Shown: one piece after another, positions 43,086-61,775 of the stretch
Numbering within the stretch: position 1 is the stretch's first letter
Layout of the letters: each line of letters starts with the position of its first letter
NCBI RefSeq assembly: GCF_016792905.1
Contig: NZ_JAEULP010000068.1
Location: 1-64,000 of the forward strand
Direction: 5' to 3'
DNA length: 64,000 nucleotides
DNA from: Tabrizicola sp.
GTDB lineage: Bacteria; Pseudomonadota; Alphaproteobacteria; Rhodobacterales; Rhodobacteraceae
Made by a program: the position numbers and the translations under genes
Notes under the pieces: model-generated
Databases searched by the model: none
What the model was told of the DNA's origin: nothing
The model's input: the letters and a program-made list of their open reading frames with translations, nothing else

Positions 43086-43199
43086 ATGGACTTCCCTGGT
43101 TGATGGTTGGTGCAGACATGCTTTCCCAGTCACCGGAACCGCCTGCGGAACCTCCGGTGTCTGATCGTGTTGCTGTGGAGGATGGGCCGGGTCAGGCCG

Positions 43200-44842: not shown

Positions 44843-45568
44843 TCAGGCCGCGCCGGGCAGGGGTCTCGTGCCCGCCACTTTGGCCAGGGCGCGCAGCCTT
44901 TCAAGGCTGTTTGACAGGTGGTTCCGCATCGCCTCGCGCGCGAGATCGGGATTGCGCTGTTCGATCGCCTCGACCACGGCGCGATGTTCGCCATGGATGC
45001 GGTCGAAATATTCGTCCTTCAGCGCGGGCAACAGGATATAGCCCAGGCGCAACCGGGGTCCGATCTGCTGACCCAGATAGGAAAGAAAGTCGATGATCTG
45101 AGGATTGTGCGACCCCCGGGCGATCAGCAAGTGAAACTCATGGTCGTAATGCACCCGGGTCGAGGTGGGGTCGGGGTGGGTGGCATCCACGCGCTCCATC
45201 TCGGCCCGGATGGCCTGAGCCTCATCCCTTGTGCAGCGCAGGGCACAGAGGCCGGCCGATTCCACCTCGACGCCCAGCCGAAGCTCGAGCAGGGCCAGGG
45301 TTTGCGGCAGGGCGTCAAGGTCTTGGTCGGGAATGGAAAAGCTGCCGAGTGGGGCCTCACTGACAAAGACGCCTTTGCCCTGACGCGGGATCACCAGCCC
45401 TTCGGACCGCAGGCGTGCCACGGCCTCGCGCACCACGGTCCGACTGACGGCAAAGCTGTCGCACAGGTCGGCTTCGGTCGGCAGTTGGGCGCCGGGGCCA
45501 AGCCTGCCGGAGCGGATCTGATCCAGCAGGCCTTCGAAGACAACGGTGGATAAGGATTTGCGCTTCAT
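44843..45568 (-). CDS. GntR/FadR-subfamily transcriptional regulator
   Basis: The 241-aa protein starts at ATG 45566-45568 with AGGG five bases upstream; GTG 45574 is an alternative. The winged helix LGPGAQLPTEADLCDSFAVS with RTVVREAVARLRSEGL is followed by an FCD ligand domain (EFHLLIARGSHNPQIIDFL). Such regulators respond to organic or amino acids. The TCAGTYATCATACA motif upstream of two nearby gene pairs may be its site. Confidence 0.85.
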   Translation of the reverse strand: MKRKSLSTVVFEGLLDQIRSGRLGPGAQLPTEADLCDSFAVSRTVVREAVARLRSEGLVIPRQGKGVFVSEAPLGSFSIPDQDLDALPQTLALLELRLGVEVESAGLCALRCTRDEAQAIRAEMERVDATHPDPTSTRVHYDHEFHLLIARGSHNPQIIDFLSYLGQQIGPRLRLGYILLPALKDEYFDRIHGEHRAVVEAIEQRNPDLAREAMRNHLSNSLERLRALAKVAGTRPLPGAA

Positions 45569-45601
45569 CGGCACCCTGTCGGCTCGGCTGCTTCAGACCT
45601 A

Positions 45602-45946
45602 TCAGACGGCGGCGGTGACGATCAACTCTACCAGCATGCCGGGCTTCGCCATCCGTCCCTCGCCGCTGGAGCGGGCGGGGGCGTGTTCGGGGGTGATCCA
45701 GCGATCCCAGACCCGGTTGACCGCGTCGAAATCACGGATGTCGTCCAGCCACATCTGGACGTGCAGGATCCTGTCGCGGCTGGTGCCCGCCTTTGCGAGC
45801 AGACGGTCGATCTTGTCCAGCACCTCCTGCATCTGCGCTTCGGCGCTGGTGCCGGGGGTGCCGACCTGGCCGGTCAGATAGACCGTGCCGTTGTGGACCA
45901 CCCCATGGTGGATGCGGGTGTCGAAGTCGAAGCGCGTGATGGTCAT
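45602..45946 (-). CDS. ridA: RidA-family imine/enamine deaminase
   Basis: The 114-aa protein starts at ATG 45944-45946. It has the RidA pattern TVYLTGQVGT, ILHVQMWLDDI and ARSSGEGRMAKPGMLVE. Such proteins hydrolyse reactive imines made by PLP enzymes or amino-acid oxidases, which suits the flavin oxidase at 47.6 kb. The ATG is one base after the upstream SDR stop, so they are probably cotranslated. Confidence 0.85.
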   Translation of the reverse strand: MTITRFDFDTRIHHGVVHNGTVYLTGQVGTPGTSAEAQMQEVLDKIDRLLAKAGTSRDRILHVQMWLDDIRDFDAVNRVWDRWITPEHAPARSSGEGRMAKPGMLVELIVTAAV

Positions 45947-45947
45947 G

Positions 45948-46724
45948 TCAGCCTCTGATCGGGTTGCCGCGCTGGTAATGCGCGAAAGGTGCCTGGACGA
46001 GCCAACCGGCGTCGACGGGCAGGGTGACGCCGGTGATGCTGGCGGCGCGGGGGGAGCAGAGGAAAAGCGCGGCTTCGGCCACATCCTCGGGCTGGACGAA
46101 CTTCTTCAGCGCGGTCGTGTCGAGGATGGCTTCGGGGTTGCGTTCCCCCGCCGCGATCTTCGCCTTCAACCCGTCGGAGAGCGTGAAGCCGGGGGCGACG
46201 GCATTGACGCGGATGCCCTTGGGGCCAAGCTCGCAGGCGAGGATTTCGGTGAGCGCCTTCACGGCCTGCTTGCCGGGCGTATAGGCGGGCAGCGACAGCG
46301 GCGCGAAGGAGGCGAGGGAGCCGACGTTCAGGATCGCATCCCCCGGGCCCATGCGACGGCCAAAGACCTGTGCGCCGACCAGCGTGCCGCGATAGTTGAT
46401 GCGCCAGAGCCGTTCGTCTTCGTCCAGCGGCTGATCCAGCACCCGCTTGCCGCTTTGCAGGATGCCCGCGCAGTTGACGAGGATATGGGGCGCCTCCGGC
46501 ATGGCCTGCGACAGGGCTTCGACGCTGGCCGGGTCGGCGACGTCGACCGGCAGGAAGTTGGCGTCCGGCGCGCCCGCCGCCCGGCAGTCCTCGGCCACAG
46601 CCTTGCCGCGCGTCGCATCGCGCCCGGCGACGGTGACGCGCATGCCTTCGGCGGCAAGGCGCAGCGCGATGGCGCGGCCGATGCCGGACGTGCCACCGAT
46701 GATCAGGGCGAGAGTGTCAGCCAT
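45948..46724 (-). CDS. SDR-family oxidoreductase
   Basis: The 258-aa SDR has [27 protein letters not shown] and the catalytic YTPGK (Tyr-x3-Lys). It overlaps the upstream shikimate-dehydrogenase-like gene by eight bases. Substrate unknown. Confidence 0.85.
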   Translation of the reverse strand: MADTLALIIGGTSGIGRAIALRLAAEGMRVTVAGRDATRGKAVAEDCRAAGAPDANFLPVDVADPASVEALSQAMPEAPHILVNCAGILQSGKRVLDQPLDEDERLWRINYRGTLVGAQVFGRRMGPGDAILNVGSLASFAPLSLPAYTPGKQAVKALTEILACELGPKGIRVNAVAPGFTLSDGLKAKIAAGERNPEAILDTTALKKFVQPEDVAEAALFLCSPRAASITGVTLPVDAGWLVQAPFAHYQRGNPIRG

Positions 46725-47526
46725 TGCGGTGCGTCCGGTCCATGTCGAAGAAGTCCACCCAGGCCTGCATCTGCGCGTCCATCATCGGTCTCCCGCCATG
46801 GGAATGGCAGCCGCGCGCCCTCGCCTCGGCCATCAGGCGGGTCTCGGCGGGTTCCATGATGATGTCATAAACCACCATGCCGGGGCGCAGTCCTTCGACG
46901 GCCATCGGGAAAGGATCGGCGGGTTTCATTCCCACCGGGGTCGCGTTGACCGCAATGTCCATGCCGGTCGGATCCGCGGGGCCGACCTTGATCTTGCAGG
47001 ACGGGAAGTTCGCCTGCACCGCCGCCGCCAGAGCCTGGACCTTTTCGACGTCCGTGTCGGCGATGGTCAGGTCGGCCACGCCTTCCTCGGCCAGACAATG
47101 CGCGATGGAGGATCCTCCGCCACCGCCGCCGACCAGCAGGGCCTTCTTGCCCGCCATCACATGCCCGGCATTCTTCATCGCCATGATGAAGCCGTAGCCG
47201 TCGAAATTGTCGGCCTCCCAGCCACCCTCGGGCAGGCGGCGCATCACGTTCACTGCCCCGACCCGCGACGCTCGCGGATGGGCCTTCGCTGCCTTCTCCA
47301 GAAGCTTCCCCTTGTAGGGAATGGAGACGATGATCCCGCGCAGGTTCGACATCGCGTCGAGGCCGGTCCAGAGATCCTCCAGCCGATCCGGCGTGCAGGT
47401 CACGGGCACCATCAGGCTGTCGAGACCTCGCTCTTCGAAGAATGCATTGCAGGCTCCCGGACTTTTCGCGTGGCCCACCGGATGGGCCAGCATGGCGAAT
47501 ACATCCGCTTTTCCAGTTCCACGCAT
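46717..47526 (-). CDS. shikimate dehydrogenase-like protein
   Basis: The 269-aa protein has AMLAHPVGHAKSPGACNAF, the catalytic Lys in VSIPYKGKLLEKA, DNFDGYGF and the NADP loop VGGGGGGSSIAH. This is the AroE fold. Primary aroE usually sits elsewhere with other housekeeping genes, so this is probably a catabolic relative, for example a quinate/shikimate or amino-ketone dehydrogenase. It starts the small operon SDR-RidA-GntR. Confidence 0.75.
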   Translation of the reverse strand: MRGTGKADVFAMLAHPVGHAKSPGACNAFFEERGLDSLMVPVTCTPDRLEDLWTGLDAMSNLRGIIVSIPYKGKLLEKAAKAHPRASRVGAVNVMRRLPEGGWEADNFDGYGFIMAMKNAGHVMAGKKALLVGGGGGGSSIAHCLAEEGVADLTIADTDVEKVQALAAAVQANFPSCKIKVGPADPTGMDIAVNATPVGMKPADPFPMAVEGLRPGMVVYDIIMEPAETRLMAEARARGCHSHGGRPMMDAQMQAWVDFFDMDRTHRNG

Positions 47527-47599: not shown

Positions 47600-48829
47600 A
47601 TGAGATCCACGATGCCGATTCCGTCCTACGCCGCTCCGAAACAGCAGTCCTATGACGTGGTGATCGTGGGGGGGGCCGCCGTGGGTTCCTCGGTCGCCTA
47701 CTGGCTGGGCGAGGAGATGCGGGGCAAGCTGTCGATCCTGGTGGTCGAGCGGGATTCGACCTATGAGTTCTCCTCGACCGCACTCTCGACCAGCGCGATC
47801 CGGCAGCAGTATTCCAACCCGATCAACGTCAAGATCAGCCAGTTCGGGGTGGAGGTCATCCGCAGCTTTCAGGAGCGGATGGCGCCATATTTCCCCGGCG
47901 AACCGGCACCGGACCTGGGGTTCAAGGAATATGGCTACCTGTACTGTTGTTCGCCGGAAGGGGTCGATGCCGCCAAGGCCCGGGTCGAGATGCAGCAGGC
48001 CCATGGCGCCCATACCGTGTTTCTGGAGCCGGGCGCGCTGAAGGCGCAGTTTCCCTGGCTGAACGTCGATGACCTTGGCGGCGGGTCATGGGGCACCCAA
48101 GCCGAGGGCTGGTTCGACTCGATGGGCCTGCTCATGGGCTTCAAGCGCGGCGCGCGGGCGCTGGGGGCGGAATATATCGACAACGCCGTGACCGGGCTGG
48201 ACCTTGAGGGTGGCCGCGTCAGCTCGGTGCGGCTGGCGACGGGCGAGGTGGTGTCCTGCGGCATCCTCGTCAACGCCGCTGGCCCGCGTGCGCAGCAGGT
48301 GGCGGCGATGGCAGGGCTGTCGATTCCGGTCGCGCCTTACAAGCGTTACAGCTTTGTCTTTGCCAGCGCGAACCCGATCCCCGGGCGGATGCCCAACGTG
48401 ATCGACCTGTCCGGCACCTTCGTTCGCCCCGAAGGCCCGCTGTTCCTGACCGGCAACACGCCGGGCGACGATGGCCCCGCCGATTATGATGACTTCGGGC
48501 CCCGTGACGAGGAGTTCGAGGAGGCGATCTGGCCCTCTCTCTGGCATCGTATCCCCGATTTCGATGCGCTGAAGGTGCAGACCCGCTGGACCGGCCATTA
48601 TGAGATGAACATGATGGACCACAACGGCATCGTCGGCTGGTCGCCGGATGTGACAAACTTCATGTTCTGCAACGGCTTCTCCGGCCACGGGCTGCAACAG
48701 TCGCCTGCCACGGGGCGCGGCGTGATGGAACTGATCGTCCATGGCGGCTTCCGCACGCTGGACCTGTCGCCGATGGCCTATGAGCGCGTGCCGGCGAACC
48801 GGCCCTTCATGGAAGATGCGGTGATCTGA
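47600..48829 (+). CDS. DAO-family FAD-dependent oxidoreductase
   Basis: The 409-aa protein has the FAD motif DVVIVGGAAVGSSVAYWLG at 19-37 and the C-terminal region NGFSGHGLQQSPATGRG typical of the D-amino-acid/sarcosine oxidase family. An ATG at 47612 is an alternative start with slightly better upstream sequence. It is divergent from the shikimate-dehydrogenase-like/RidA operon; imines from its reaction would be RidA substrates. Which N-methyl or amino acid it oxidises is not visible. Confidence 0.85.
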   Translation: MRSTMPIPSYAAPKQQSYDVVIVGGAAVGSSVAYWLGEEMRGKLSILVVERDSTYEFSSTALSTSAIRQQYSNPINVKISQFGVEVIRSFQERMAPYFPGEPAPDLGFKEYGYLYCCSPEGVDAAKARVEMQQAHGAHTVFLEPGALKAQFPWLNVDDLGGGSWGTQAEGWFDSMGLLMGFKRGARALGAEYIDNAVTGLDLEGGRVSSVRLATGEVVSCGILVNAAGPRAQQVAAMAGLSIPVAPYKRYSFVFASANPIPGRMPNVIDLSGTFVRPEGPLFLTGNTPGDDGPADYDDFGPRDEEFEEAIWPSLWHRIPDFDALKVQTRWTGHYEMNMMDHNGIVGWSPDVTNFMFCNGFSGHGLQQSPATGRGVMELIVHGGFRTLDLSPMAYERVPANRPFMEDAVI

Positions 48830-48884: not shown

Positions 48885-49700
48885 TCAGCCCTGCGGATCG
48901 TCGGGGTGGCCGGTTTCCACGAAGAACCCGCCCAGGCACTGAACGGCGGGGGCCTTGGGGTCGGGAACCGGGGTTTTCGCCTCCATAGCGGCGCGGAAGC
49001 GTTCGGTGTTGTCCTGCGGGATATAGCCCAGATGCCCGGCAAGGCGGTTGTCGACCGGCTTTTCGTTGTTGTCGGAAATCCCGAAGGACACGGTGAAGCC
49101 CACGCGCGGCGCGGTCAGGGCGGCGGCGGTCAGGCGGTTGCAATCCTCGAACGACAGCCACGACCACAGGTGCCGCCGGTCGGCCGGTTCGGGGAAGGAT
49201 GAGAAGATCCGCAAAGCCACGCTTTCGATGCCGAACTTGTCCCAGTAAAGCCGCCCAAGGTCTTCGACGAAGCATTTCGACAGGCCGTAAAGCCCGTCGG
49301 GGCGGTGCGGGGCGGTGGTGTCGATATGGTCTTCAAGCTTGTGAAAGCCGATGGCATGGACGGACGACGCATAGACGACGCGCTTGACGCGATGTTTCCG
49401 TGCCGCCTCATAGATGTGATAGCTGCCGCGGATATTGCTATCGAGGATTTCCTGCCAGGGCCGCTCCATCGGCGCGCCGCCGAAATGGACGATGGCATCG
49501 ACGCCCTCGCAGGCGGCCATCACCGCCGCCTCATCGGACAGGTCGAACACCACCGATTCTTCGTTGGCGGCAAGGTTGGCGATCGGGGCGCGGGCGGCCA
49601 GACGCAGCTTGCGCGCCAGGGGCGCAAGGCCCCGGCGCAGCTCGGTTCCAAGGCGGCCGGCGGCGCCGGTGATCAGGATCGTATCGTAACGAGGGGTCAT
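48885..49700 (-). CDS. udh: uronate dehydrogenase-like NAD-dependent enzyme
   Basis: The 271-aa protein has ILITGAAGRLGTELRRGLAP, the VVFDLSDEAAVMAACEGVDA segment, SSVHAIGFHK and the catalytic YGLSK. The overall order strongly resembles bacterial uronate dehydrogenases, which oxidise D-galacturonate or D-glucuronate to aldarolactone. It is the last gene of the five-gene operon, overlapping the aminotransferase by four bases (49697-49700). Confidence 0.8.
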   Translation of the reverse strand: MTPRYDTILITGAAGRLGTELRRGLAPLARKLRLAARAPIANLAANEESVVFDLSDEAAVMAACEGVDAIVHFGGAPMERPWQEILDSNIRGSYHIYEAARKHRVKRVVYASSVHAIGFHKLEDHIDTTAPHRPDGLYGLSKCFVEDLGRLYWDKFGIESVALRIFSSFPEPADRRHLWSWLSFEDCNRLTAAALTAPRVGFTVSFGISDNNEKPVDNRLAGHLGYIPQDNTERFRAAMEAKTPVPDPKAPAVQCLGGFFVETGHPDDPQG

Positions 49701-50908
49701 TTGGCCTCCGAAAGGGCGGCGACGGCGCGGGCAATGCGGGCGATGGCCTCGGTCAGCACGGCGTCGGACGTGGCGGTGGAGATGCGGAAGAACGGCGACA
49801 GGCCAAAGGCGGCGCCCGGAACCGAGGAGACATGCCCCTCGGCCAGAAGATAGGCGACGACGGCGGCTTCGTCCGACAGGATCGTGCCCTTGGGCGTGCG
49901 CTTACCGATCAGGCCACCGCAGCCGATGAAGGCGTAGAACGCCCCTTCCGGCGGCGGCAGGGTCAGGCCCGGAATCTTGGCAATGCCCGCCACGACCAGA
50001 TCGCGGCGACGTTCGAAAGCCGCCTTGAAGGTGGCGATGCAGTCCTGCGGCCCGGTCAGCGCCGCCAGCGCGGCGGCCTGCATGGGCGCGGCAACCGAGG
50101 TGCAGCTTTGGCTTTGCACCGTGGCCATCGCCTTGATCAGCGGCGCCGGACCCGCGGCATAGCCCACGCGCCAGCCGGTCATGGCATAGGCCTTGGCGAC
50201 CCCGTTCACGATCAGCGTGCGGTCCTTCAACTCGGGGCAGGCCTTGCCGAAGCTGACGAACGCCCGCCCGTCGAACAGGATATGTTCGTAGATTTCATCC
50301 GACAGGATCAGCACCTGCGGGTGCCGCGCCAGAACCGCCCCCAGCGCCTGCATCTCGGCCAGGGAATAGACCGCGCCCGAGGGGTTGCCCGGCGCATTCA
50401 GGAACAGCCATTTGGTTTTTGGCGTGATCGCGGCTTCCAGAATCTCCGGCGTCAGGCGAAAGCCCGCTTCGGCGGAACAGACCGCCGTGACCGGCACACC
50501 GCCCAGCAGCTTGGTCATCTCGGGATAGCTGACGAAATAGGGCGCGGGGGTGATCACCTCGTCCCCGTCGTTCAGCGTCGCCATCAGCGCGTTGAAGATG
50601 ATCTGCTTGGCGCCATTGGCCACCACGATGTCATCGGGGCCATAGTCCAGCCCATTCTCGCGGCGGAACTTTTCCGCCACCGCCGCGCGCAGGGCGGGCG
50701 TGCCGGGCGAGGCGGTGTAGAGCGTCTCGCCCCGCAGGGCGGCGGCATGGGCCGCCTCGGCGATATGCGGGGGCGTCGGGAAATCGGGTTCCCCAAGGCC
50801 AAGGTCGATCACGTCCACCCCGGTCGCCCGCAGCGCCTTGGCCGCCATCGAAGCCGCCATCGAGGCCGAGGGTTTCACCGCCGCCAGACGGCCTGCGACA
50901 TAGCTCAT
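49697..50908 (-). CDS. class I/II PLP aminotransferase (aspartate-aminotransferase type)
   Basis: The 403-aa protein has DVIDLGLGEPDFPTPPHIAE, LFLNAPGNPSGAVYS, the PLP Lys in NGVAKAYAMTGWRVGY and FRISTATSD. The fold is the aspartate-aminotransferase type I family. Its partners are unusual for this family: HyuB upstream and uronate dehydrogenase downstream, both with 4-nt overlaps. The amino donor and acceptor are not clear. Confidence 0.88.
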   Translation of the reverse strand: MSYVAGRLAAVKPSASMAASMAAKALRATGVDVIDLGLGEPDFPTPPHIAEAAHAAALRGETLYTASPGTPALRAAVAEKFRRENGLDYGPDDIVVANGAKQIIFNALMATLNDGDEVITPAPYFVSYPEMTKLLGGVPVTAVCSAEAGFRLTPEILEAAITPKTKWLFLNAPGNPSGAVYSLAEMQALGAVLARHPQVLILSDEIYEHILFDGRAFVSFGKACPELKDRTLIVNGVAKAYAMTGWRVGYAAGPAPLIKAMATVQSQSCTSVAAPMQAAALAALTGPQDCIATFKAAFERRRDLVVAGIAKIPGLTLPPPEGAFYAFIGCGGLIGKRTPKGTILSDEAAVVAYLLAEGHVSSVPGAAFGLSPFFRISTATSDAVLTEAIARIARAVAALSEAK

Positions 50909-52539
50909 TTGCGATCTCCGCTGATATAGCCCTTCGAGATGTCATTGGCGCGTGCCGCCGGATCGCGCAAGGCCGGGTCGCCATAACCGCCGCCGCCCGG
51001 CAGGTGCAGCACCAGCTTGCGGCCCGCAGGCACATGCTGCCAGCCCTTGGGGTTCAGGGGGGTGCCATCGTCCAGGGCAACGGTGCCCTTCTTGCCCTCC
51101 TTGCCACCATTGCGGCCGCGCGGGGCGTTCAGGGTGCGGTCGAACATGGCCGAAAACTCGAACTCATGGCCCTTGGCCGGTTCGATCTCGATGATCTGGC
51201 CAAGGCCGCCGCGATACTGGCCATCGCCTGCCGAGTCGGGGCGCAACTCCTTGCGCCAGATCACCACCGGCCCGGCATGTTCCGTCGCCTCGATCGGCAT
51301 GGTCATCACGCCCGAGGGGAAGGCGGTGGCGTTCAGCCCGTCCTGTTCGGGCCGCGCCCCCATGCCGCCCGAGTTGAACATCAGGATCTCGGCGCGTTGG
51401 CCCTGCTGCCCGGCGGCGGGGCGCACCGACATGTGGATGTTCCACAAGGCGCCCGACCCTTCGGCCAGAATCCTGCCCGGCAGCGCCTGCGCCAGCGCGC
51501 CCAGCACGAGGTCGGGCACCATATGGCCAAAGACATGGCGCAGCGAGACGGGCGCGGGGCGCGGCGCGTTCAGGATGTTTTCGGGGCTGGAGACGGTGAA
51601 CGGTTCCAGCGAGGCCCAGTTGTTCGGAATATCGGGCGCGACCACGCATTTCATCGCATAGCAGGCATAGGCCTTGGTATAGATGATCGGGGTGTTGATG
51701 CCCCAGCGGCTGATGCCGTCGGTGCCGGTGAAATCCACGTTCACCTCGGCCTCATGCGTCGTCACGGTGGCTTGAAGCGTGACGGGCTTGTCATAGCCGT
51801 CGGTCGTCAGGCGGTTGGTCCAGGTGCCCTTGGGCAGGGCAGCGATGCGTTCCAGCGTGGCCGCCCGTGTGCGGGCAAAGATGAACGCGCCCAGATCGTC
51901 CAGCGTATCGAGGCCGACCTCCTCCATCATCGCGATCAGCCGCCGGTGGCCCACATCGTTGCAGGCGGCCAGCGAGTAGAAATCGCCCACCACCTGATTG
52001 GCCTCGCGCACGTTGGCGCGCAGCATCTGCACGAGGAAGGCGTTCACCACGCCCCGCTCGGCAAATTTCATGATCGGGATCTGGATGCCTTCCTCATAGA
52101 CCGACTTGCCATCGGCCCCGAAGCCGCGCCCGCCCACGTCGACCACATGGGCGGTGCAGGCGAAAAAGCCGACCAGCACGTGGCCCTTGAAGCTGGGCGA
52201 GACCATGGTGATGTCATGCAGGTGCCCGGTGCCCTTCCACGGGTCATTCGTCACATAGGTGTCGCCGGGGAACATGTTCTGGCGGCCGATCTCGTCGATG
52301 AAATGCAGCACCGCCTCGGCCATGGTGTTGACGTGGCCCGGCGTGCCGGTGACGGCCTGCGCCAGCATCCGGCCCTCGGGATCGAAGACGCCGGCCGACA
52401 GGTCGCCCGCCTCGCGGACAGAGGTGGAAAAGGCGGTGCGCAGCAGGGTCATCGCCTGTTCTTCCACCACGGAAATCAGGCGGTTCCACATGACCTGCAT
52501 GTGGATTTCACGGGTCTGGTCGCGGGTTGCGGCGGACAT
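50905..52539 (-). CDS. hyuB: hydantoinase B / N-methylhydantoinase B-type subunit
   Basis: The 544-aa protein is a HyuB-family subunit: RLISVVEEQAMTLLRTAFSTSVREAGD, then HLHDITMVSPSFKGHVLVGF, GVMTMPIEATEHAGPVVIWR and the C-terminal ending GGGYGDPALRDP. With HyuA it forms an ATP-dependent hydantoinase or a related carboxylase/oxoprolinase. The substrate is undecided. Start overlaps the HyuA stop by one base (52539). Confidence 0.9.
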   Translation of the reverse strand: MSAATRDQTREIHMQVMWNRLISVVEEQAMTLLRTAFSTSVREAGDLSAGVFDPEGRMLAQAVTGTPGHVNTMAEAVLHFIDEIGRQNMFPGDTYVTNDPWKGTGHLHDITMVSPSFKGHVLVGFFACTAHVVDVGGRGFGADGKSVYEEGIQIPIMKFAERGVVNAFLVQMLRANVREANQVVGDFYSLAACNDVGHRRLIAMMEEVGLDTLDDLGAFIFARTRAATLERIAALPKGTWTNRLTTDGYDKPVTLQATVTTHEAEVNVDFTGTDGISRWGINTPIIYTKAYACYAMKCVVAPDIPNNWASLEPFTVSSPENILNAPRPAPVSLRHVFGHMVPDLVLGALAQALPGRILAEGSGALWNIHMSVRPAAGQQGQRAEILMFNSGGMGARPEQDGLNATAFPSGVMTMPIEATEHAGPVVIWRKELRPDSAGDGQYRGGLGQIIEIEPAKGHEFEFSAMFDRTLNAPRGRNGGKEGKKGTVALDDGTPLNPKGWQHVPAGRKLVLHLPGGGGYGDPALRDPAARANDISKGYISGDRK

Positions 52540-54617
52540 CAGACGATCTCCTTCTTCAGCATCAGAAGCGAGCCGTCGGATTGCATGACGACATCGAAGG
52601 GGGCGGTGACGACGGTCGAGGTTTCACGTTCGACCACCACGGTGGGGCCGGAAACCCGGTCACCAGCGGCAAGGCTTTCGCGGGCCACGATGCCGGTTTT
52701 CAGCGCGCGGGCCGAGGACGGGTCGAACACCGCGCGGAATTGGGGCGCGGCCACGCTGCGGGAGCCATGGGTCAGCGTGGCCGGCTCCGGGGCGGGGCGC
52801 TTGTCCGCCGCCTTGACGGAAATTGTGACGATCTCGATCTCCAGCCCCGACAGCCCGTCGATGGCGCGTCCGAAGAAGCGGGCATAGGCCGTGAGGAACC
52901 CCTCGCGGATCAGCGCCACATCGGCATCGGTAAAGGCGCGGTCGGGCAGCGGCACCGGAATTTCCCAGCCCTGCCCGCGATAGCGCATGAAGGCCACGAT
53001 CTCGGCATGGATCGCGCCGTCGGTGCCCTGGCGCACGAAGCTCTCGGCGGTGGCCTTCAGATCGGCGATCAGCAGGTTGACGGCAGTGGCATCGAAGCTG
53101 GACAGGCCGATGATGCGCGAGGCAAGGGATTCATAGCCGAAGGGCGCCTTGAGGAACCCGATGGCCGAGCCCACGCCCGCGCCGGGCGGCACAAGGCAGC
53201 GGTCGATGCCCAGCTTTTCGCACAGCCGCGCGGCGTGCAGGGGGGCGGCGCCGCCAAAGGCCACCATCATGTTGTCGGAAATGTCCTTGCCGTTTTCCAC
53301 CGCATGAACGCGGGCGGCGTTGGCCATGTTTTCATCCACCACCTCGCCAATGCCAAAGGCGGCGGCTTCGGTGTTCAGGGAAAGGCGGCTGCCCACGTCA
53401 CGGTCAATCGCGGCCTCGGCATTGGCGAGTGACAGCTTGATCGCGCCCCCCGCGAAGTTGTCGGGGTCAAGCTTGCCCAGAACCAGATCGGCATCGGTGA
53501 TCGCCGGGCGCTTGCCGCCGCGCTGATAACAGGCGGGCCCCGGTTCCGACCCCGCCGATTCCGGGCCGGTCTGGATGCGGCCCATGGCATCGACCCAGGC
53601 GATGGAGCCGCCGCCCGCGCCGATCTCGATCATCTCGATCACCGGGATGGAGATTGGCATCCCCGATCCCTTGGCAAAGCGCGTGGTGCGGGCAACTTCG
53701 AAGGTGCGGGCGGTCTTGGGGGCGAAATCCTCGATCAGGCAGATCTTGGCCGTGGTGCCGCCCATGTCATAGCTGACGACCTTATCAAGGCCGAACTTCC
53801 GCGCCACGTCGGCGGCAAAGATCGCCCCGCCCGCCGGGCCGGATTCCACCAGCCGCACCGGAAACTCGGCGGCAGTATCGACCGAGACCAGACCCCCGCC
53901 CGAGTGGATCATGAACACCGGGCAGCCCGCACCCTTTTCCTTCAGCCGCACTTGCAGCCGGTCGAGATAGCTCGCCATCTGGGGCCGCACATAGGCATTG
54001 GCGCAGACGGTGTTGAACCGCTCGAACTCGCGCATCTGCGGCGAGACTTCGGACGAGATCGAGATCGGCAGATCGACCGATGCCGCGATGATGTCGCGCG
54101 CCCGGCGTTCATGCGCGGGGTTGAGGTAAGAGTGGATGAAGCCGATGGCGACCGCGCCATAGCCGCCCGCCGCGATGCGGTCGGCCAGCGTGTGCAGCGC
54201 GGCCTCGTCCAAGGGCGCGAGTTCCTGCCCCTGCGCGCCGATCCGGCCCGCGACGGTGAAACGGTCCTCGCGCGGCACCAAGGGCGTCGGCAGCGTCAGG
54301 TTCAGGTCATACTGATCGAACCGGCTTTCGGTCCGCATCTCGATCACGTCGCGGAAGCCTTCGGTGGTGATGAAGGCGGTCTTTGCGCCGCGCCGCTCGA
54401 TCAGCGCATTGGTCGCCAGCGTGGTGCCGTGGATGACGATCTCCAGATCGCCATAGCCGATCCCGGCCTGGTCCAGCACCATATCCATGCCGTCCAGAAT
54501 GGCCTGTTCCGGCGCGGCATAGTTGGTCAGCACCTTGGTCGAGAACATCCGGCCCCGGCAGTCCAGCGCAATATCGGTGAAGGTGCCGCCGATGTCGGCG
54601 CCAAGTCGAATGGTCAT
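52539..54617 (-). CDS. hyuA: hydantoinase A / N-methylhydantoinase A-type subunit
   Basis: The start at ATG 54615-54617 gives 692 aa beginning MTIRLGADIGGTFTDIALD, the ATP-binding motif, with a second one in YDMGGTTAKICLI and a serine/threonine-rich middle. Lengths of HyuA and HyuB are normal. A long frame that continues upstream reads through the ThDP gene in another frame and is not real. It overlaps the ThDP gene stop by four bases. Confidence 0.92.
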   Translation of the reverse strand: MTIRLGADIGGTFTDIALDCRGRMFSTKVLTNYAAPEQAILDGMDMVLDQAGIGYGDLEIVIHGTTLATNALIERRGAKTAFITTEGFRDVIEMRTESRFDQYDLNLTLPTPLVPREDRFTVAGRIGAQGQELAPLDEAALHTLADRIAAGGYGAVAIGFIHSYLNPAHERRARDIIAASVDLPISISSEVSPQMREFERFNTVCANAYVRPQMASYLDRLQVRLKEKGAGCPVFMIHSGGGLVSVDTAAEFPVRLVESGPAGGAIFAADVARKFGLDKVVSYDMGGTTAKICLIEDFAPKTARTFEVARTTRFAKGSGMPISIPVIEMIEIGAGGGSIAWVDAMGRIQTGPESAGSEPGPACYQRGGKRPAITDADLVLGKLDPDNFAGGAIKLSLANAEAAIDRDVGSRLSLNTEAAAFGIGEVVDENMANAARVHAVENGKDISDNMMVAFGGAAPLHAARLCEKLGIDRCLVPPGAGVGSAIGFLKAPFGYESLASRIIGLSSFDATAVNLLIADLKATAESFVRQGTDGAIHAEIVAFMRYRGQGWEIPVPLPDRAFTDADVALIREGFLTAYARFFGRAIDGLSGLEIEIVTISVKAADKRPAPEPATLTHGSRSVAAPQFRAVFDPSSARALKTGIVARESLAAGDRVSGPTVVVERETSTVVTAPFDVVMQSDGSLLMLKKEIV

Positions 54618-56281
54618 GCGGTTTCCTTTGCTTTCAGCGCGGCTTCGCGCATCTGGCTGAGTGTCTGGCGCGGGGTCAGCGCCTCGGGAGAGATGTTCAG
54701 GTCCAGCACCGCGCCAGTGCCCGAAGCCATGGCGCGGGCGAAAGCCGCCGCGAAATCCTCGGTCCGCTCCACCCGTTCCGAATGGAAGCCATAGGCGCGC
54801 GACAGGGCCACGAAATCGGGGTTCACCATGTCGGTGCCGGAAACCCGGGTGGGATAGGTGCGTTCCTGATGGGCGCGGATCGTGCCGTAGATGCCGTTGT
54901 TCAACAGCAGGATGATCGGCTGCGCGCCATATTGCAGCGCGGTGGCCAGTTCCTGACAGTTCATCTGGAAATCGCCGTCGCCCGCAAAGCAGACGACCGT
55001 GCGGGCCGGATCGGCGACCTTCGCGGCCACAGCGGCGGGCAGGCCATAGCCCATGGCGCCCGACTGCGGCGCCAGCAGCCGCGCCTTGGGCCCGAACTTG
55101 TAGAACTTGTTCGGCCAGACGGTGAAATTGCCCGCGCCGTTGGTCAGGATCGCATCCTCGGGCAGCACTTCGCGCAGATGCGCCATGGCCACGCCCATAT
55201 CGACGGGCGAGGGCAGGGGGGCCAGGTCGAACCCCGCCTCCCAATCGGCCCGCGCCCTGGCGCGCCATGCAGCCCAGCCGCCCCTGACCGGCGACAGCGC
55301 GGCGGCAAAGGCGTTCGGCCCGGCCTGAATGCCAAGCGTCGGCTGATAGACCTTGCCGATCTCGCGGTCTGACGCATGGACATGGATCAGCTTTTGCACC
55401 GGCACGGGCACCGACAGCAGAGTGTAACCATCCGTCGTCATCTCGCCAAAGCGGAGGTTGATCGCCATGATCACATCCGCCTCGGTGATCAGGCGGCGCA
55501 CGGGGGCGGGCATCCCGACCCCGGCCTCGCCGGCATAGGCGGGCGAGAAATTGTCGAACTGGTCCTGATAGCGGAAGGCGGCGATGACCGGAATGTCGCT
55601 GGCCTCGGCAAAGCCCTGCAAGGCCGCCTGTCCGGCTTCGGTCCAGTTGCAGCCGCCCATCAGGATCAGCGGGCGCTCGGCCGCGCCCAGCATCGCCTGC
55701 ACCTCGGCCATCGTGACGGCATCGGGGGCGGGCTCGGCCACGCGGGTCGGCCCGGTCAGCGGCAGGGCCTCGGTCAGTCGGGTCAGCATGTCCTCGGGCA
55801 GGGCAATCACCACCGGGCCGGGGCGGCCCGTGATCGCCGTCGTCCAGGCGCGGGCGAGGATTTCGGGGATGCGGTCGGTGTCGTCGATCTCGACCGCCCA
55901 TTTCGCCATGGTGCCAAAGACGGCGCGATAGTCGATCTCCTGAAACGCCTCGCGGCCCTTCATGTCGGTGCCGACCTGGCCCACGAACAGGATCATCGGC
56001 GCGCTGTCCTGCATCGCGGTATGCACCCCGATCGAGGCATTGGTCACACCCGGCCCGCGCGTGACCATGCACAGCCCCGGCTGCGCGGTCAGCTTGCCCC
56101 AGGCGGCGGCCATGAAGGCCGCGCCCCCTTCGTTCCGGCAATTGATGAAATCAAGGCGGCCCTTGGTGTCGTGCAGCGCATCCAGCACGGCCAGATAGCT
56201 TTCGCCCGGCACCCCAAACGCCTTGGTCGCCCCCAGCGCCACCAGGCTTTCGACCAGAATCTGCCCGCCGTTCCGCTTCAT
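54614..56281 (-). CDS. thiamine-diphosphate-dependent enzyme (acetolactate-synthase type)
   Basis: The 555-aa protein has GGQILVESLVALGATKAFGVPG, the catalytic Glu in CRNEGGAAFMAAAWGK (E51), and the ThDP motif beginning GDGDFQMNCQELATAL and ending LLNNGIYGT. That is the ilvB/POX/decarboxylase superfamily, without a regulatory subunit gene beside it. The reaction is unknown. It is the first gene of the overlapping five-gene operon; a gap of 140 bp separates it from the aldehyde dehydrogenase. Confidence 0.88.
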   Translation of the reverse strand: MKRNGGQILVESLVALGATKAFGVPGESYLAVLDALHDTKGRLDFINCRNEGGAAFMAAAWGKLTAQPGLCMVTRGPGVTNASIGVHTAMQDSAPMILFVGQVGTDMKGREAFQEIDYRAVFGTMAKWAVEIDDTDRIPEILARAWTTAITGRPGPVVIALPEDMLTRLTEALPLTGPTRVAEPAPDAVTMAEVQAMLGAAERPLILMGGCNWTEAGQAALQGFAEASDIPVIAAFRYQDQFDNFSPAYAGEAGVGMPAPVRRLITEADVIMAINLRFGEMTTDGYTLLSVPVPVQKLIHVHASDREIGKVYQPTLGIQAGPNAFAAALSPVRGGWAAWRARARADWEAGFDLAPLPSPVDMGVAMAHLREVLPEDAILTNGAGNFTVWPNKFYKFGPKARLLAPQSGAMGYGLPAAVAAKVADPARTVVCFAGDGDFQMNCQELATALQYGAQPIILLLNNGIYGTIRAHQERTYPTRVSGTDMVNPDFVALSRAYGFHSERVERTEDFAAAFARAMASGTGAVLDLNISPEALTPRQTLSQMREAALKAKETA

Positions 56282-56421: not shown

Positions 56422-57855
56422 TCAGCCCGCATAGGTATAGGCGGTCTTGACCGAGGTGTAAAAGTCCATCGCCATGCGGCCCTGTTCGCGCCCGCCCAGG
56501 CTGGAAGCGCCGCGCCCGCCAAAGGGAACGTGATAATCGACCCCTGCGGTCGGCAGGTTCACCATCACCATTCCCGCTTTCGACCGGCGGCGGAACTCGG
56601 TCGCTTCGCGCAGCGACCCGGTGCAGATGCCAGAGGAAAGCCCAAATTGGGTGTCATTGGCCACGGCCACCGCTTCCTCGAAGTCGGCGGCCTTGATGAC
56701 GGCGGCGCAGGGGCCAAAGATTTCCTCGCGCGCAACGCGCATGTCGTTCGCCGCGCCAAGAAACAGCGCGGGGCTTTGGAACGTGCCGGGCCGGTTCAGG
56801 CGCTGGCCGCCGATGACCTCGCAACCCTCGTCGCCCGCAAGCCGCACATAGTCCAGATTGCCCGCCAGTTGGCTTTCCGACACCACGGGGCCGATCTGGG
56901 TCGCCGCATCCAGCGGGTCTCCGATTCGCAACGCCGTCATCGCCGCCGTCAGCTTTTCGACAAAGGCATCGTGGACCGGCGCCTCGACGATCAGCCGCGA
57001 CGAGGCGGTGCAACGCTGGCCGGTGGAAAAGAATGCGCCGTTCAGGCAGGCGGCAACCGCAAGGTCCAGATCGGCCTTGGCCGTCACCACCATCGGGTTC
57101 TTGCCGCCCATTTCCAGCTGCACCTTCTTCATGCCGCGCGCGCAGTCCAGCGCAATGCCGCGCCCGACCCGTTCGGATCCGGTAAAGGATATCGCCGCCA
57201 CATCGGGATGCCCGGTCAGCGCCGCGCCGATCTCGGATCCGCGCCCCATGACCAGGTTGAACACCCCCGGCGGGCAGCCTGCAGCTTCCAGCACCTGGGC
57301 CAGCAGATGTGCGCAGCTGGGCGTCAGGTCTGCCGGTTTCAGCACGACCGCGTTGCCGGCGGCAAGAGCTGGAGCTGTCTTCCATGCCGGTATCGCGATC
57401 GGAAAGTTCCAGGGCGTGATCAGGCCGACGACGCCCAGCGGTTCGCGCGTCACTTCGGCTTCGACGCCATCGCGCAACGACGGCAGTTTCTCCCCGGGAT
57501 TGCGAAGCGCTTCACCCGAGTAGAAATGGAAAAGCTGCGCAGCGCGCAAGGCCTCGCCCCTCGCCTCGGCTAGGGTCTTGCCCTCTTCCCGCGCCAGAAG
57601 GCGGCCCATCTCCTCGACCCGGTCAAGCAGACGATCGCCCACCCGACGCAGCACGTCCGACCTGATCTGCGGCGACGCGCTGCCCCAGGCAGGTTGTGCC
57701 GTTCTGGCCGCCGCCACGGCAGCGTCCACGTCCGCTTTTCCACCCCGCGCGTAGACCCCGACCAGATCCTCCGGGTTGGCCGGATTGCGGTTTTCGCTGG
57801 TCTGATCGGCGCGACTCCACTCGCCGTTGATGAAGTTGTGCTGGATTTCGATCAT
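56422..57855 (-). CDS. NAD(P)-dependent aldehyde dehydrogenase (2-oxoglutarate-semialdehyde type likely)
   Basis: The 477-aa protein has GLITPWNFPIAIPAWKTAPA, the active-site Glu in QLEMGGKNPMVV, the catalytic Cys in TGQRCTASSR and the C-terminal GVDYHVPFGGRGASSLG. Residues around SGICTGSLREATEFRRRSKAG match the subgroup that oxidises 2-oxoglutarate semialdehyde. With uronate dehydrogenase, HpcH aldolase and GarR-type reductase nearby, a role in uronate/aldarate or hydroxyproline breakdown is likely. A 223-bp gap precedes it. Confidence 0.85.
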   Translation of the reverse strand: MIEIQHNFINGEWSRADQTSENRNPANPEDLVGVYARGGKADVDAAVAAARTAQPAWGSASPQIRSDVLRRVGDRLLDRVEEMGRLLAREEGKTLAEARGEALRAAQLFHFYSGEALRNPGEKLPSLRDGVEAEVTREPLGVVGLITPWNFPIAIPAWKTAPALAAGNAVVLKPADLTPSCAHLLAQVLEAAGCPPGVFNLVMGRGSEIGAALTGHPDVAAISFTGSERVGRGIALDCARGMKKVQLEMGGKNPMVVTAKADLDLAVAACLNGAFFSTGQRCTASSRLIVEAPVHDAFVEKLTAAMTALRIGDPLDAATQIGPVVSESQLAGNLDYVRLAGDEGCEVIGGQRLNRPGTFQSPALFLGAANDMRVAREEIFGPCAAVIKAADFEEAVAVANDTQFGLSSGICTGSLREATEFRRRSKAGMVMVNLPTAGVDYHVPFGGRGASSLGGREQGRMAMDFYTSVKTAYTYAG

Positions 57856-58078: not shown

Positions 58079-58846
58079 TCAGCGGGGCCTGAACTGCGCC
58101 ACAAGCGCATCCGACCCGCGCGCCAGAAGACCAAGGTCGGATCCGATCGCGACCATCGTGAAACCGGCCGCAAGGTACCGCTGTGCATCGGCCTGCTGCG
58201 GCGCAAGGATTCCGGTGGCCTTGCCCTGCGCCTGCGCCGCCGCCAGCACGGAGGCGATGGCGTCCTGCACATGCGGGGCCGCGGGGTTGCCCATCGCCCG
58301 CATGTTCGTGGACAGATCGCCCGGCCCGACGAACAGCACATCCACGCCCGGCACGGCAGCGATCTCGGCAGCATTGGCCACGCCCGTCTCGCATTCGATC
58401 TGCGCGACCAGCAGCTGCTGGCGATGCGCATTGGCGTGGTAGTCCTTGACCCGTCCGTAGGCATTGGCGCGCTGCGCGACGGAGAAGCCGCGAATGCCGT
58501 CAGGAGCATAAGCCATGGCCGCGACGATGGCTTTCGCCTGTGCGGCCGTGCGGACATTTGGGATCATCAGGCTGCGCGCGCCGATGTCCATCGCCTGCTT
58601 GATCAGGTTCGGGTCATCCGAAGGCAGCCGCACGGCCGCCTCGACCGGAAACGCGGCCGCAGCCTGAAGCTGGGCCAGGATGCTGCGCAGGTCGTTCGGG
58701 CTGTGCTCGCCGTCGATCAGCAGCCAGTCCGCTCCGGATCCGGCAACAATTTCGGTCGTGATCGCCGAGGCGAGCGAGCACCAGATCCCGATGGCCGGAC
58801 GCCCGTCACCCAGGGCCAGTTTCAGACTGTTGACCCGTTCCAGCAT
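58079..58846 (-). CDS. HpcH/HpaI-family aldolase
   Basis: The 255-aa protein shows IGIWCSLASAITTEIVAGSG, the general-base His in DGEHSPND (H48), and the metal-binding Glu and Asp (E151 in AQIECETG and D177 in VGPGDLS). The family includes 5-keto-4-deoxyglucarate aldolase (garL), which yields pyruvate and tartronate semialdehyde. A GarR-type reductase that could use the latter is divergent next to it. Confidence 0.88.
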   Translation of the reverse strand: MLERVNSLKLALGDGRPAIGIWCSLASAITTEIVAGSGADWLLIDGEHSPNDLRSILAQLQAAAAFPVEAAVRLPSDDPNLIKQAMDIGARSLMIPNVRTAAQAKAIVAAMAYAPDGIRGFSVAQRANAYGRVKDYHANAHRQQLLVAQIECETGVANAAEIAAVPGVDVLFVGPGDLSTNMRAMGNPAAPHVQDAIASVLAAAQAQGKATGILAPQQADAQRYLAAGFTMVAIGSDLGLLARGSDALVAQFRPR

Positions 58847-58932: not shown

Positions 58933-59814
58933 ATGCGGATCGGATTCATCGGGCTGGGGGTCATGGGTGCGCCCATGGCGGGGCATCTCACGGCGGGCGG
59001 AAACACGCTTGTGACCTGCCTCAACCGCTCACCCCTGCCCGAAGGGTTGGTCGCGACCGTTGCGCAGAACCCGTGCGCCGTGGCCCGCGACAGCGACATC
59101 GTCATCCTGATGCTGCCCGACACGCCCGATGTCGAACGGGTCCTTATGGGCGCAGATGGCGTTATCGCGGGGCTGAACCCCGGTACGCTCGTCATCGACA
59201 TGAGCACGATCAGCCCGATCGCGACCGCGCAATTCGCCGAAGCGGTGCGTGCGGCTGGAGGCAGCTACCTTGACGCGCCGGTCTCGGGCGGCGAGGTCGG
59301 CGCGAAGGCCGGCAGCCTGACGATCATGGTTGGCGGAGCGGAGGAAGACTTTGCCCGTGCCCTGCCGCTGTTCCAGCTGATGGGCAAGAACATCACCCTT
59401 GTCGGCACCGCCAACGGGGCGGGTCAGACCTGCAAACTGGCCAACCAGATCATCGTCGCGCTGAACATAGAAGCGGTGGCAGAGGCGCTGGTCTTTGCCA
59501 GCAAGGCCGGATGCGACCCCGCCAGAGTACGGCAGGCGTTGATGGGTGGGTTCGCCGCAAGCCGCATCCTTGAGGTCCATGGCGAACGGATGATCGCCCG
59601 CAGCTTCAATCCGGGCTTCCGCATCCGCCTGCATCAGAAGGACCTCGCGCTCGCCCTGTCATCGGCGCGTGAACTGGGGGTGGCCCTGCCCAATACCGCG
59701 ACCGCACAAGAGCTGATGAATGCCTGCTCTGCGAAAGGGTTGAGGGACGCCGACCATTCCGCCCTTGTTCAGGCACTTGAGTCGATGGCGGATCACGCCC
59801 TTTCCGGCGGCTAA
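58933..59814 (+). CDS. 2-hydroxy-3-oxopropionate (tartronate semialdehyde) reductase-type enzyme
   Basis: The 293-aa protein has GFIGLGVMGAPMAGHLTAGG at the N-terminus, SGGEVGAKAGSLTIMVGG and the catalytic Lys in TCKLANQIIVALN. That is the beta-hydroxyacid dehydrogenase family; garR-type members reduce tartronate semialdehyde to glycerate. It ends with a TAA that overlaps the stop of the convergent LysR gene. GGAGAGGG precedes the ATG. Confidence 0.85.
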   Translation: MRIGFIGLGVMGAPMAGHLTAGGNTLVTCLNRSPLPEGLVATVAQNPCAVARDSDIVILMLPDTPDVERVLMGADGVIAGLNPGTLVIDMSTISPIATAQFAEAVRAAGGSYLDAPVSGGEVGAKAGSLTIMVGGAEEDFARALPLFQLMGKNITLVGTANGAGQTCKLANQIIVALNIEAVAEALVFASKAGCDPARVRQALMGGFAASRILEVHGERMIARSFNPGFRIRLHQKDLALALSSARELGVALPNTATAQELMNACSAKGLRDADHSALVQALESMADHALSGG

Positions 59815-60719
59815 GGCTCCTGCCAGTCCTGCTCCAGAAGCCAGCGGTGCAACGCGGCGACATGCTTGGCCCGAAGCCGCGCCTTGGTGGTGATCAGGTA
59901 GAAGCCGGGCACCGTCTCTGGCGGCATGTCGGACAGGATGTCCATGCCCAAGGGTGCCACCAGTTTGCCCGAGGCGATGTCTTCCTCGGCGTCGAGGACC
60001 GAGATCAGCCCGATCCCCAACCCCTGATAGGCCGCGCGGCGCATCGTGGCCGCATCGTCGAAGGTCATGCCCCGGTCAAGCTCGGGCGCCTCGACACCGA
60101 GATGCCGCAGGATGTCCGGCCACAATCGCTTCGACCGGGCCGGTTGCAGAAGGTTGAACTGCAACAGATCTGCGGGAGATGTGATCCTGTCCGCCATGTC
60201 GGGGCGGCAGCAGATGACCTTGGGGTCGCGCGTCAGTAGGTGGCTTTGCCCATCGCGTCGCTCGCCGTAGCCCCATTGCACGGCAAGGTCGATCTGGTCC
60301 CGTTCCAGATCGACAAGGTCGATCATCGTCGTCAACCCGATCTCGGCATCGGGCACGGCCTGCCGGAACAACGCCAGCCGCGGCATGAGATACCGCGTGC
60401 CAAAATAGGGGCTGACGTTCAGGTTGATCCTCTCGCGCTCGCGAGGGCCGGTTACTCGGCGGATGCCTTCCTCGAATTCGTCAAAGCCGGCACTGACGTA
60501 ATGCGACAGGGTGATCGCCTTTTCGGTAAGCCGGATGCCCCGTCCCTCGCGTTCCATCAGCACGACGCCAAGCGCCTCTTCCAGAAGCCGGATCTGCTGG
60601 CCCACGGCCTGCGGCGAGACATAAAGCTCTTCTGCCGCCTCGCGCAGCGACCTGTGACGGACGACGGCGTGAAAGACACGCAGGGAATTCAGGGGCGGCA
60701 GGCGTATCTTGGATGACAT
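59811..60719 (-). CDS. LysR-family transcriptional regulator
   Basis: The start at ATG 60717-60719 gives 302 aa with NSLRVFHAVVRHRSLREAAE and YVSPQAVGQQIRLLEEAL as winged HTH. It is in tandem with another LysR gene, so one may regulate the aldolase/reductase pair and the other the YdiJ-like gene. Its end overlaps the reductase stop. Confidence 0.9.
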   Translation of the reverse strand: MSSKIRLPPLNSLRVFHAVVRHRSLREAAEELYVSPQAVGQQIRLLEEALGVVLMEREGRGIRLTEKAITLSHYVSAGFDEFEEGIRRVTGPRERERINLNVSPYFGTRYLMPRLALFRQAVPDAEIGLTTMIDLVDLERDQIDLAVQWGYGERRDGQSHLLTRDPKVICCRPDMADRITSPADLLQFNLLQPARSKRLWPDILRHLGVEAPELDRGMTFDDAATMRRAAYQGLGIGLISVLDAEEDIASGKLVAPLGMDILSDMPPETVPGFYLITTKARLRAKHVAALHRWLLEQDWQEP

Positions 60720-60809
60720 GGGCAGGCCCTTGGCCGAACTACGGCACCGGGCATACCTAGCACCTTGTCGAGCCAATACAAAGCGCTGCTTTCCTTTGAT
60801 GTACTGCAG

Positions 60810-61740: not shown

Positions 61741-61775
61741 TTTCGTGTTTCAAGGCATTGTTGCAGGAGGCAGCC

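Follow-up and report, generated by a model that had tools for sequence, protein, structure and literature searches.

The opening of lactam rings by ATP-dependent amide hydrolases of the HyuAB type belongs to two described pathways that resemble the locus analysed here. In the caprolactam pathway of Pseudomonas jessenii, CapAB opens the lactam at the expense of ATP and an aminotransferase then removes the amino group, while in anaerobic indoleacetate degradation the oxindole-acetate hydrolase IaaCE opens a lactam made by oxidising an N-heterocycle, on an aromatic substrate and with other partner enzymes (both as reported in PMC8453981). The present locus is a run of five overlapping genes in Tabrizicola sp. 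(Rhodobacteraceae), within a stretch of 64,000 nucleotides (contig NZ_JAEULP010000068.1, positions 1 to 64,000), which is called the window below. It encodes a thiamine diphosphate (ThDP)-dependent enzyme, HyuA, HyuB, an aminotransferase (AAT) and a short-chain dehydrogenase/reductase (SDR) resembling uronate dehydrogenase (UDH). Judged by sequence, the five-gene set is a catabolic operon, widely conserved among soil and water bacteria, of known enzyme families whose combination appears undescribed. We propose, with a little less than even confidence, that it forms the core of a pathway breaking down a cyclic (imino) amino acid. The pathway would proceed via a lactam, its ATP-dependent opening and nitrogen removal.

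The caprolactam pathway differs from such a scheme in that the lactam itself is imported, and the window HyuAB misses the CapA and CapB equivalog cut-offs; we know of no UDH or ThDP partner in it, nor of one from the DAO family of flavin adenine dinucleotide (FAD)-dependent enzymes. The oxidative hexuronate pathway (Udh, KdgD and alpha-ketoglutarate semialdehyde dehydrogenase, or GarL and GarR) shares the UDH fold, the KdgD end seen in Sinorhizobium/Ensifer relatives and the GarL/GarR-like end of the window. It is unlike the locus in that the window UDH-like protein has Asn112 replaced and amino-acid transporters lie beside the operon, and to our knowledge HyuAB, the aminotransferase and DAO have no part in it. 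The bacterial catabolism of pipecolate/D-lysine and of 4-hydroxyproline offers an amine dehydrogenase acting on a ring amino acid, diacid intermediates, a YdiJ-type D-2-hydroxyglutarate dehydrogenase and semialdehyde dehydrogenases. In the known pipecolate and hydroxyproline routes the cyclic imine opens as an aldehyde that is oxidised directly, and we know of no route for pipecolate, D-lysine or 4-hydroxyproline that uses a lactam. The sequence-only reading from which this analysis started knew of no described pathway combining these enzymes; the literature searched, which left out most subscription journals and preprints, likewise gave no description of the gene set or pathway.

The five open reading frames all lie on the minus strand and run from 56281 down to 48885:

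54614 to 56281, minus strand: ThDP-dependent enzyme, 555 aa, PRK08199 subfamily (NF006052)
52539 to 54617, minus strand: HyuA, ATP-binding subunit of an ATP-dependent amide hydrolase, 692 aa (PF01968, PF05378)
50905 to 52539, minus strand: HyuB, metal-binding subunit, 544 aa (PF02538)
49697 to 50908, minus strand: class I/II pyridoxal phosphate (PLP) aminotransferase (AAT), aspartate-aminotransferase-like, 403 aa (PF00155)
48885 to 49700, minus strand: uronate-dehydrogenase-like SDR, 271 aa, full-length match to 3ay3 and 3rft

The order and the overlaps of one or four bases given by the sequence-only reading are borne out, the overlaps between consecutive genes being 4, 1, 4 and 4 bases as read from the sequence. 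GC content by codon position backs four of the five genes, and HyuA is missing from that scan, its reading frame staying open upstream as far as 56141. The enzyme classes are in line with Pfam and NCBIfam for all five, the Pfam domains being three ThDP domains, Hydantoinase_A with its N-terminal region, Hydantoinase_B, Aminotran_1_2 and Epimerase. The extent first assigned was right for the five genes, although the conserved cluster in the window is wider, from about 38.9 kb (an amino-acid ATP-binding cassette (ABC) transporter) to at least 59.8 kb (GarR and a LysR-type regulator).

To look for the same gene set elsewhere, a HyuB alignment was scanned against one genome per species and the best 80 of 536 relatives were analysed, a choice that favours close relatives. 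These loci come mainly from Rhodobacteraceae and Mesorhizobium, with others from Labrys, Shinella, Agrobacterium, Ochrobactrum/Brucella and Halomonas; at 17 of the 80, the sequence to one side of HyuB is shorter than 6 kb. Related genomes do not count as independent, and some genomes are included twice. At 58 of the 80 loci, more than chance would give, HyuA, ThDP, AAT and UDH are all on the strand of HyuB and no more than 9 kb away from it. Counted singly over the same distance and strand, HyuA is present at 79 loci, UDH at 72, ThDP at 70, AAT at 63, DAO at 41, LysR at 40, a D-2-hydroxyglutarate-type dehydrogenase at 34, amino-acid ABC genes at 33, the two SDRs termed SDR2/3 below at 33 and an aldehyde dehydrogenase (ALDH) at 15. 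Among the matches listed from 390 genomes of the window's order, HyuB at 72% identity or more occurs at 17 places in 16 genomes, with UDH within 3 kb at 16 of the 17, ThDP within 5 kb at 15 and AAT (at least 68% identity) at 8. The joint pathway suggested by the sequence-only reading thus gains support from conserved linkage, and the partners are not always found apart in other genomes.

Nearly the entire window block is carried by the Paracoccus yeei plasmid pTT13-1, where genes for DAO, aldolase, GarR, a shikimate-dehydrogenase-like protein, SDR, RidA, GntR, ALDH and an FAD dehydrogenase are followed by ThDP, HyuA, HyuB, AAT, UDH, DAO, LysR, two SDRs and an ABC transporter. Rhizobium leguminosarum, Rhizobium sp. 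SL42 and R. jaguaris combine HyuA, HyuB, AAT, UDH, DAO and ThDP with a YdiJ-type dehydrogenase and two SDRs, and the loci of the latter two also hold an ALDH with electron transfer flavoprotein genes. Beside the relatives stand amino-acid transporters of three kinds (Aap-like, small-permease type and Liv type), and in Mesorhizobium-type loci the amino-acid ABC transporter lies immediately upstream of the operon. Of 31 fetched loci from a HyuB clade farther away (58–66% identity), none has ThDP; these loci, like the 40 ThDP loci considered below, were selected from longer lists. The typical order in this clade is HyuA-HyuB-DAO-HpaI-(AAT)-UDH, so that an aldolase takes the place held by the ThDP enzyme in the window's clade.

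The UDH-like protein aligns over its full length with the uronate dehydrogenases 3ay3 (Chromohalobacter-type, E 1e-71) and 3rft (Agrobacterium), and it has the catalytic Tyr and Lys; the Asn of the Ser-Asn-His motif is absent. In the numbering of A. tumefaciens Udh, the window protein has Val for Asn112 and retains Tyr136, Lys140, Ser165 and Arg174. A Val or Ile at this position runs through 108 UDH-like sequences, comprising that of the window and those of the fetched loci (103 distinct; 104 lie no more than 6 kb from HyuB; matches with stops or with fewer than 220 residues left out): position 112 holds Val in 102 and Ile in 6, Ala replaces Thr114 in all 108, Ser111, His113, Tyr136, Lys140, Ser165 and Arg174 are retained in all, and Ser75 is kept in only 7. 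As a control we took 20 UDH-like genes away from HyuB, picked from a longer list of matches. Eight of these keep Ser-Asn-His and are 54–66% identical to A. tumefaciens Udh, with KdgD near four of them, and 12 have Val or Ile. A DAO gene adjoins 10 of the 12 Val/Ile-type genes and none of the eight Asn-type genes. The exact probability for 10/10 versus 0/8 is 2.3e-5, and about 4e-4 by hand once the two negatives are added (10/12 versus 0/8), values that serve as a guide only since the genes are related. Because the Val/Ile-type genes, unlike the Asn-type, mostly adjoin DAO, our reading is that this branch of the UDH family would act on the product of an amine dehydrogenase. The last gene product has the uronate dehydrogenase fold, but the name uronate dehydrogenase is less well supported, Asn112 being replaced throughout and such genes tending to adjoin DAO. 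The window has its own DAO gene next to the operon:

47600 to 48829, plus strand: FAD-dependent amine dehydrogenase of the DAO family, 409 aa (PF01266, 176.6 bits)

Its product is 54% identical to the DAO at the end of the P. yeei operon. Away from HyuAB, DAO–UDH pairs (L250, L251 and L252) adjoin an APH-family kinase and a DsbA-like protein, and those of L250 and L251 are also near an N-formylglutamate-amidohydrolase-family gene. Hydroxylysine kinase has the APH fold, and the kinase beside these pairs might hint at a substrate; the neighbours of DAO–UDH pairs away from HyuAB (M19 dipeptidase, APH kinase, DsbA-like protein, N-formylglutamate amidohydrolase and a GarR-like reductase) did not decide the substrate. 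At L262:2877-5200, a Val-type UDH adjoins relatives of SDR2 and SDR3; an MTTB-family gene follows 4 kb farther along, and DAO and HyuAB are absent.

HyuA and HyuB belong to their families by Pfam score (Hydantoinase_A 263.3 bits, Hydant_A_N 159.2, Hydantoinase_B (PF02538) 483.2). HyuA carries the ATP phosphate motifs DIGGTFTD at 8 and DMGGT at 284, and its best structure matches are N-methylhydantoinase 7hk5 (8e-108) and caprolactamase 6yra (5e-96). The metal ligands of CapB are conserved in HyuB (ligands as given in PMC8453981), their equivalents being D46, H106, D109 and H131, which are invariant among 10 sequences. The pair misses the NCBIfam equivalogs for caprolactamase CapAB, scoring 457.6 and 163.4 bits against a cut-off of 1000 each.

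The ThDP enzyme is probably a 2-oxo acid decarboxylase. It passes NF006052 (PRK08199) with 781.6 bits against a cut-off of 539 and has the GDG...NN motif and Glu51. Acetolactate synthase (TIGR00118, 334.3 bits, below 538.35) and sulfoacetaldehyde acetyltransferase (225.4 bits against 676.4) were considered and ranked lower, as was an arginine transaminase route (AruI-like PRK07524, 241.5 bits against 500). A glyoxylate carboligase role was likewise ranked lower, Glu51 being kept where Gcl carries Val. The aminotransferase has its PLP lysine motif in place and matches AatB 6f35 with 455.6 bits; it misses the aspartate transaminase equivalog PRK06107 (NF004769; 525.2 bits against 617). Where HyuAB is absent, no shared gene context of the ThDP gene was found among its neighbours. 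On a symbiosis plasmid of Paraburkholderia phenoliruptrix (L162), ALDH, FAD dehydrogenase, ThDP and aminotransferase genes form a group that has neither HyuAB nor UDH next to it.

A clue to substrate size may lie in the genes that could act after the core, which differ between lineages. In the window and next to the operon these, and the transporter, are:

38991 to 43133, minus strand: amino-acid ABC transporter with binding protein (42054-43133), two permeases and ATPase (PF00497, PF00528, PF00528, PF00005)
56422 to 57855, minus strand: ALDH, 477 aa (NF052305 507.1 bits and NF042993 502.4 bits, cut-offs 750 and 770)
58079 to 58846, minus strand: HpaI/GarL-type class II aldolase (PF03328; HpaI 268.1 bits, GarL 258.2 bits)
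58933 to 59814, plus strand: 2-hydroxy-3-oxopropionate (tartronate semialdehyde) reductase GarR (TIGR01505, 379.2 bits, cut-off 340.75)

In Sinorhizobium/Ensifer (L170, L214 and L216, including S. meliloti RMO17), KdgD and ALDH replace UDH, DAO and ThDP, the run in S. meliloti and Ensifer adhaerens being RidA, amino-acid ABC transporter, HyuA, HyuB, AAT, KdgD and ALDH. The S. meliloti KdgD passes TIGR03249 (412.6 bits, cut-off 373.95). The substrate of KdgD is 5-dehydro-4-deoxyglucarate, a 4,5-dihydroxy-2-oxoadipate. A GarL/HpaI-like aldolase and a GarR passing TIGR01505 occur both in the window and in P. yeei, and this pair would handle the acid used by KdgD; the window GarR misses NF011633 (390.1 bits against 451). 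The YdiJ of R. leguminosarum passes the D-2-hydroxyglutarate dehydrogenase family NF049975 (1494.3 bits, cut-off 1350), an end that would suit a 5-hydroxy-2-oxoadipate losing CO2 to the ThDP enzyme and then oxidised by ALDH. In the window, a frame of 963 residues for a YdiJ-like FAD and iron-sulfur protein, from 61758 to 64000 and past the window end, is a candidate D-2-hydroxyacid dehydrogenase that misses NF049975 (846.4 bits against 1350). The best-scoring families for the three ALDHs tested are those of 2,5-dioxovalerate/alpha-ketoglutarate semialdehyde dehydrogenases, whose cut-offs are not reached. Six carbons would fit all three downstream ends and two hydroxyls two of them, in which case HyuAB would open a six-membered lactam of the 6-oxopipecolate type. 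Since a hydroxylated six-carbon diacid best fits the three ends, our guess for the substrate is a hydroxylated pipecolic acid (5-hydroxy or 4,5-dihydroxy), although we hold this identification to be rather doubtful.

The genes, their conserved linkage, the residue changes and the alternative downstream genes are observed; from them we infer each reaction, the order of the reactions and the substrate as follows. The cyclic (imino) amino acid would be imported by the amino-acid ABC transporter, and the DAO-family enzyme would oxidise the ring amine to a cyclic imine, hydrating to a hemiaminal. The UDH-like SDR, as a putative cyclic hemiaminal dehydrogenase, would convert the hemiaminal carbon to a lactam. 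The ring of 6-hydroxypipecolate may be regarded as a nitrogen isostere of the uronate pyranose, and a hemiaminal of this kind would thus fit the UDH ancestry of the enzyme. HyuAB would then spend ATP to cleave the lactam, giving an alpha-amino diacid from which the aminotransferase would form a 2-oxo diacid. This could be decarboxylated by the ThDP enzyme, oxidised by ALDH and finished by a D-2-hydroxyacid dehydrogenase; it could be split by the HpaI/GarL aldolase into pyruvate and tartronate semialdehyde, the latter being reduced by GarR; or, in Sinorhizobium/Ensifer, it could pass through KdgD and an aldehyde dehydrogenase. This lactam logic is the best-supported mechanism. The cyclic amide proposed as substrate by the sequence-only reading would fit in it as an intermediate and not as the imported compound. 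More generally, and slightly more hesitantly than for the five genes themselves, we suggest a lactam route of amino-acid catabolism in which DAO and a repurposed UDH turn a cyclic secondary amine into a lactam, which HyuAB then cleaves in an ATP-dependent step to give an alpha-amino diacid. The UDH-like protein would be a hemiaminal (6-hydroxypipecolate-type) dehydrogenase, and DAO–UDH a portable module also found apart from HyuAB. We know of no described enzyme with such a dehydrogenase activity.

The remaining genes of the wider block are:

43200 to 43943, minus strand: SDR oxidoreductase SDR3 (PF13561), at 34/80 loci
43951 to 44664, minus strand: SDR oxidoreductase SDR2 (PF00106), at 36/80 loci
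44843 to 45574, minus strand: GntR/FadR-type regulator (PF00392, PF07729)
45602 to 45946, minus strand: RidA family protein (PF01042), start set after the SDR1 stop
45948 to 46724, minus strand: SDR oxidoreductase SDR1 (PF13561)
46717 to 47526, minus strand: shikimate-dehydrogenase-like protein (PF08501), beside the operon at 5/80 loci
59811 to 60776, minus strand: LysR-type regulator, relatives of which adjoin the operon at many loci

Adjoining the amino-acid ABC transporter, an Aconitase X protein (36808-38565) scores 774.5 bits with the cis-3-hydroxy-L-proline dehydratase family, above the cut-off of 700; none of the 80 HyuB loci showed it in stretches of up to about 10 kb on each side. Farther along, 26941-35757 holds an OpuAC betaine-type binding protein, an ABC permease and ATPase, an MTTB-family methyltransferase without in-frame stop, a flavin mononucleotide oxidoreductase and LysR genes, a block that probably serves the breakdown of an N-methylated amino acid and possibly lies upstream of the same pathway. 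A tricarboxylic acid cycle block at 7560-21424 includes dihydrolipoamide-dehydrogenase-like, E2, 2-oxoglutarate dehydrogenase E1 and succinyl-CoA synthetase beta genes.

Several observations weigh against the lactam route proposed here. An ATP-using detour through a lactam looks wasteful beside the cheaper known route, in which ALDH acts on the open-chain semialdehyde. That Asn112 and Ser75 contact the sugar hydroxyls of Udh substrates and Arg174 the carboxylate is our assumption, for which no confirmation was found in print, and two of the 12 Val/Ile-type control genes (L063 and L262) have no DAO nearby. The ALDH and HpaI/GarL assignments lie under the family cut-offs, the window aldolase scoring 258.2 against 406.75 bits for GarL and 268.1 against 368.8 for HpaI. 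KdgD would need a 4,5-dihydroxy acid, whereas a 5-hydroxy acid would suit the D-2-hydroxyglutarate end; no single substrate would therefore explain every variant. The distant HyuB clade has DAO at 17, UDH at 19, HpaI at 11 and AAT at 4 of its 31 loci; 11 lack DAO, UDH and HpaI (one of them, L183, has AAT), and HyuAB at these loci may therefore do something else. Finally, the ThDP enzyme is far commoner than the set: it has matches in at least 203 of the 390 genomes of the window's order (E 1e-150), and HyuA and HyuB accompany it at 9 of 40 fetched loci, five of which also have AAT and UDH in the same run, a sixth (L044) having only a distant AAT on the opposite strand.

This commonness is what makes a mixed neighbourhood conceivable, in which HyuAB, DAO and UDH form one unit and ThDP and the aminotransferase another, co-transcribed by chance: ThDP stands without HyuAB at 31 of the 40 loci, distant-clade HyuAB lacks it throughout (0/31), and the Paraburkholderia group of ALDH, FAD dehydrogenase, ThDP and AAT does without adjacent HyuAB or UDH. 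The overlap of the genes in the window and their joint presence at 58 of 80 loci over Rhodobacteraceae, Mesorhizobium, Labrys, Shinella, Agrobacterium and Halomonas make such an accident quite improbable in our view. Hydroxyproline is a possible substrate, and a five-membered ring would need little change to the chemistry: DAO and UDH would turn it into 4-hydroxy-5-oxoproline, HyuAB would open this to 4-hydroxyglutamate and AAT would form 4-hydroxy-2-oxoglutarate, which HpaI would split into pyruvate and glyoxylate or ThDP would direct towards D-malate and oxaloacetate. HyuAB does belong with 5-oxoprolinase-type enzymes, the AAT is aspartate-aminotransferase-like, HpaI occurs in the distant operons and the window has its cis-3-hydroxy-L-proline dehydratase beside the transporter; yet the KdgD of Sinorhizobium/Ensifer and the window GarR call for a dihydroxy acid of six carbons, and the top ALDH matches are five-carbon semialdehyde enzymes, so we consider this version unlikely. 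Neither 4-hydroxyproline epimerase nor pyrroline-4-hydroxy-2-carboxylate deaminase is named in the annotated clusters read, no family search having been aimed at them.

The nitrogen-containing sugar acid raised by the sequence-only reading comes near in one respect, as KdgD, a sugar-acid enzyme, follows HyuAB and the aminotransferase in Sinorhizobium/Ensifer. In an amino sugar acid pathway, UDH would oxidise a 2-amino-2-deoxy-uronate or aldarate, HyuAB would open its lactam, the PLP enzyme would eliminate to a 2-dehydro-3-deoxyaldarate and RidA would clear the enamine, which accords with the UDH fold, with the KdgD or GarL/GarR ends and with RidA in the window and the S. meliloti clusters. The relatives read, however, adjoin amino-acid and not sugar or tripartite ATP-independent periplasmic (TRAP) transporters, Asn112 is lost, and DAO, which such a pathway would not need, is paired with UDH; we regard it as improbable. 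Breakdown of hydantoin, creatinine or a ureido compound, with HyuAB as a true ATP-dependent hydantoinase, is suggested by the name of the nearest solved relative, N-methylhydantoinase (7hk5), and would leave UDH, KdgD and GarR without a role. We disfavour this route, also raised by the sequence-only reading, since the annotated clusters read, for which the gene table is incomplete, show neither a carbamoylase nor a creatininase next to the operon, and we give it very little credence. Methylhistidine, ergothioneine and willardiine were dropped as substrates, offering no role for KdgD, GarR or UDH.

If the lactam route is correct, it would give a function to a widespread and mostly unassigned branch of the hydantoinase/oxoprolinase family to the uncharacterised ThDP subfamily PRK08199, and to a UDH paralogue whose present name is probably wrong. 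The lactam would represent a second chemical solution for opening ring amino acids, and plant-associated rhizobia and aquatic Rhodobacterales would be tied to a common nutrient. Hydroxylated pipecolic acids are plant metabolites, and the substrate could thus matter in the rhizosphere.

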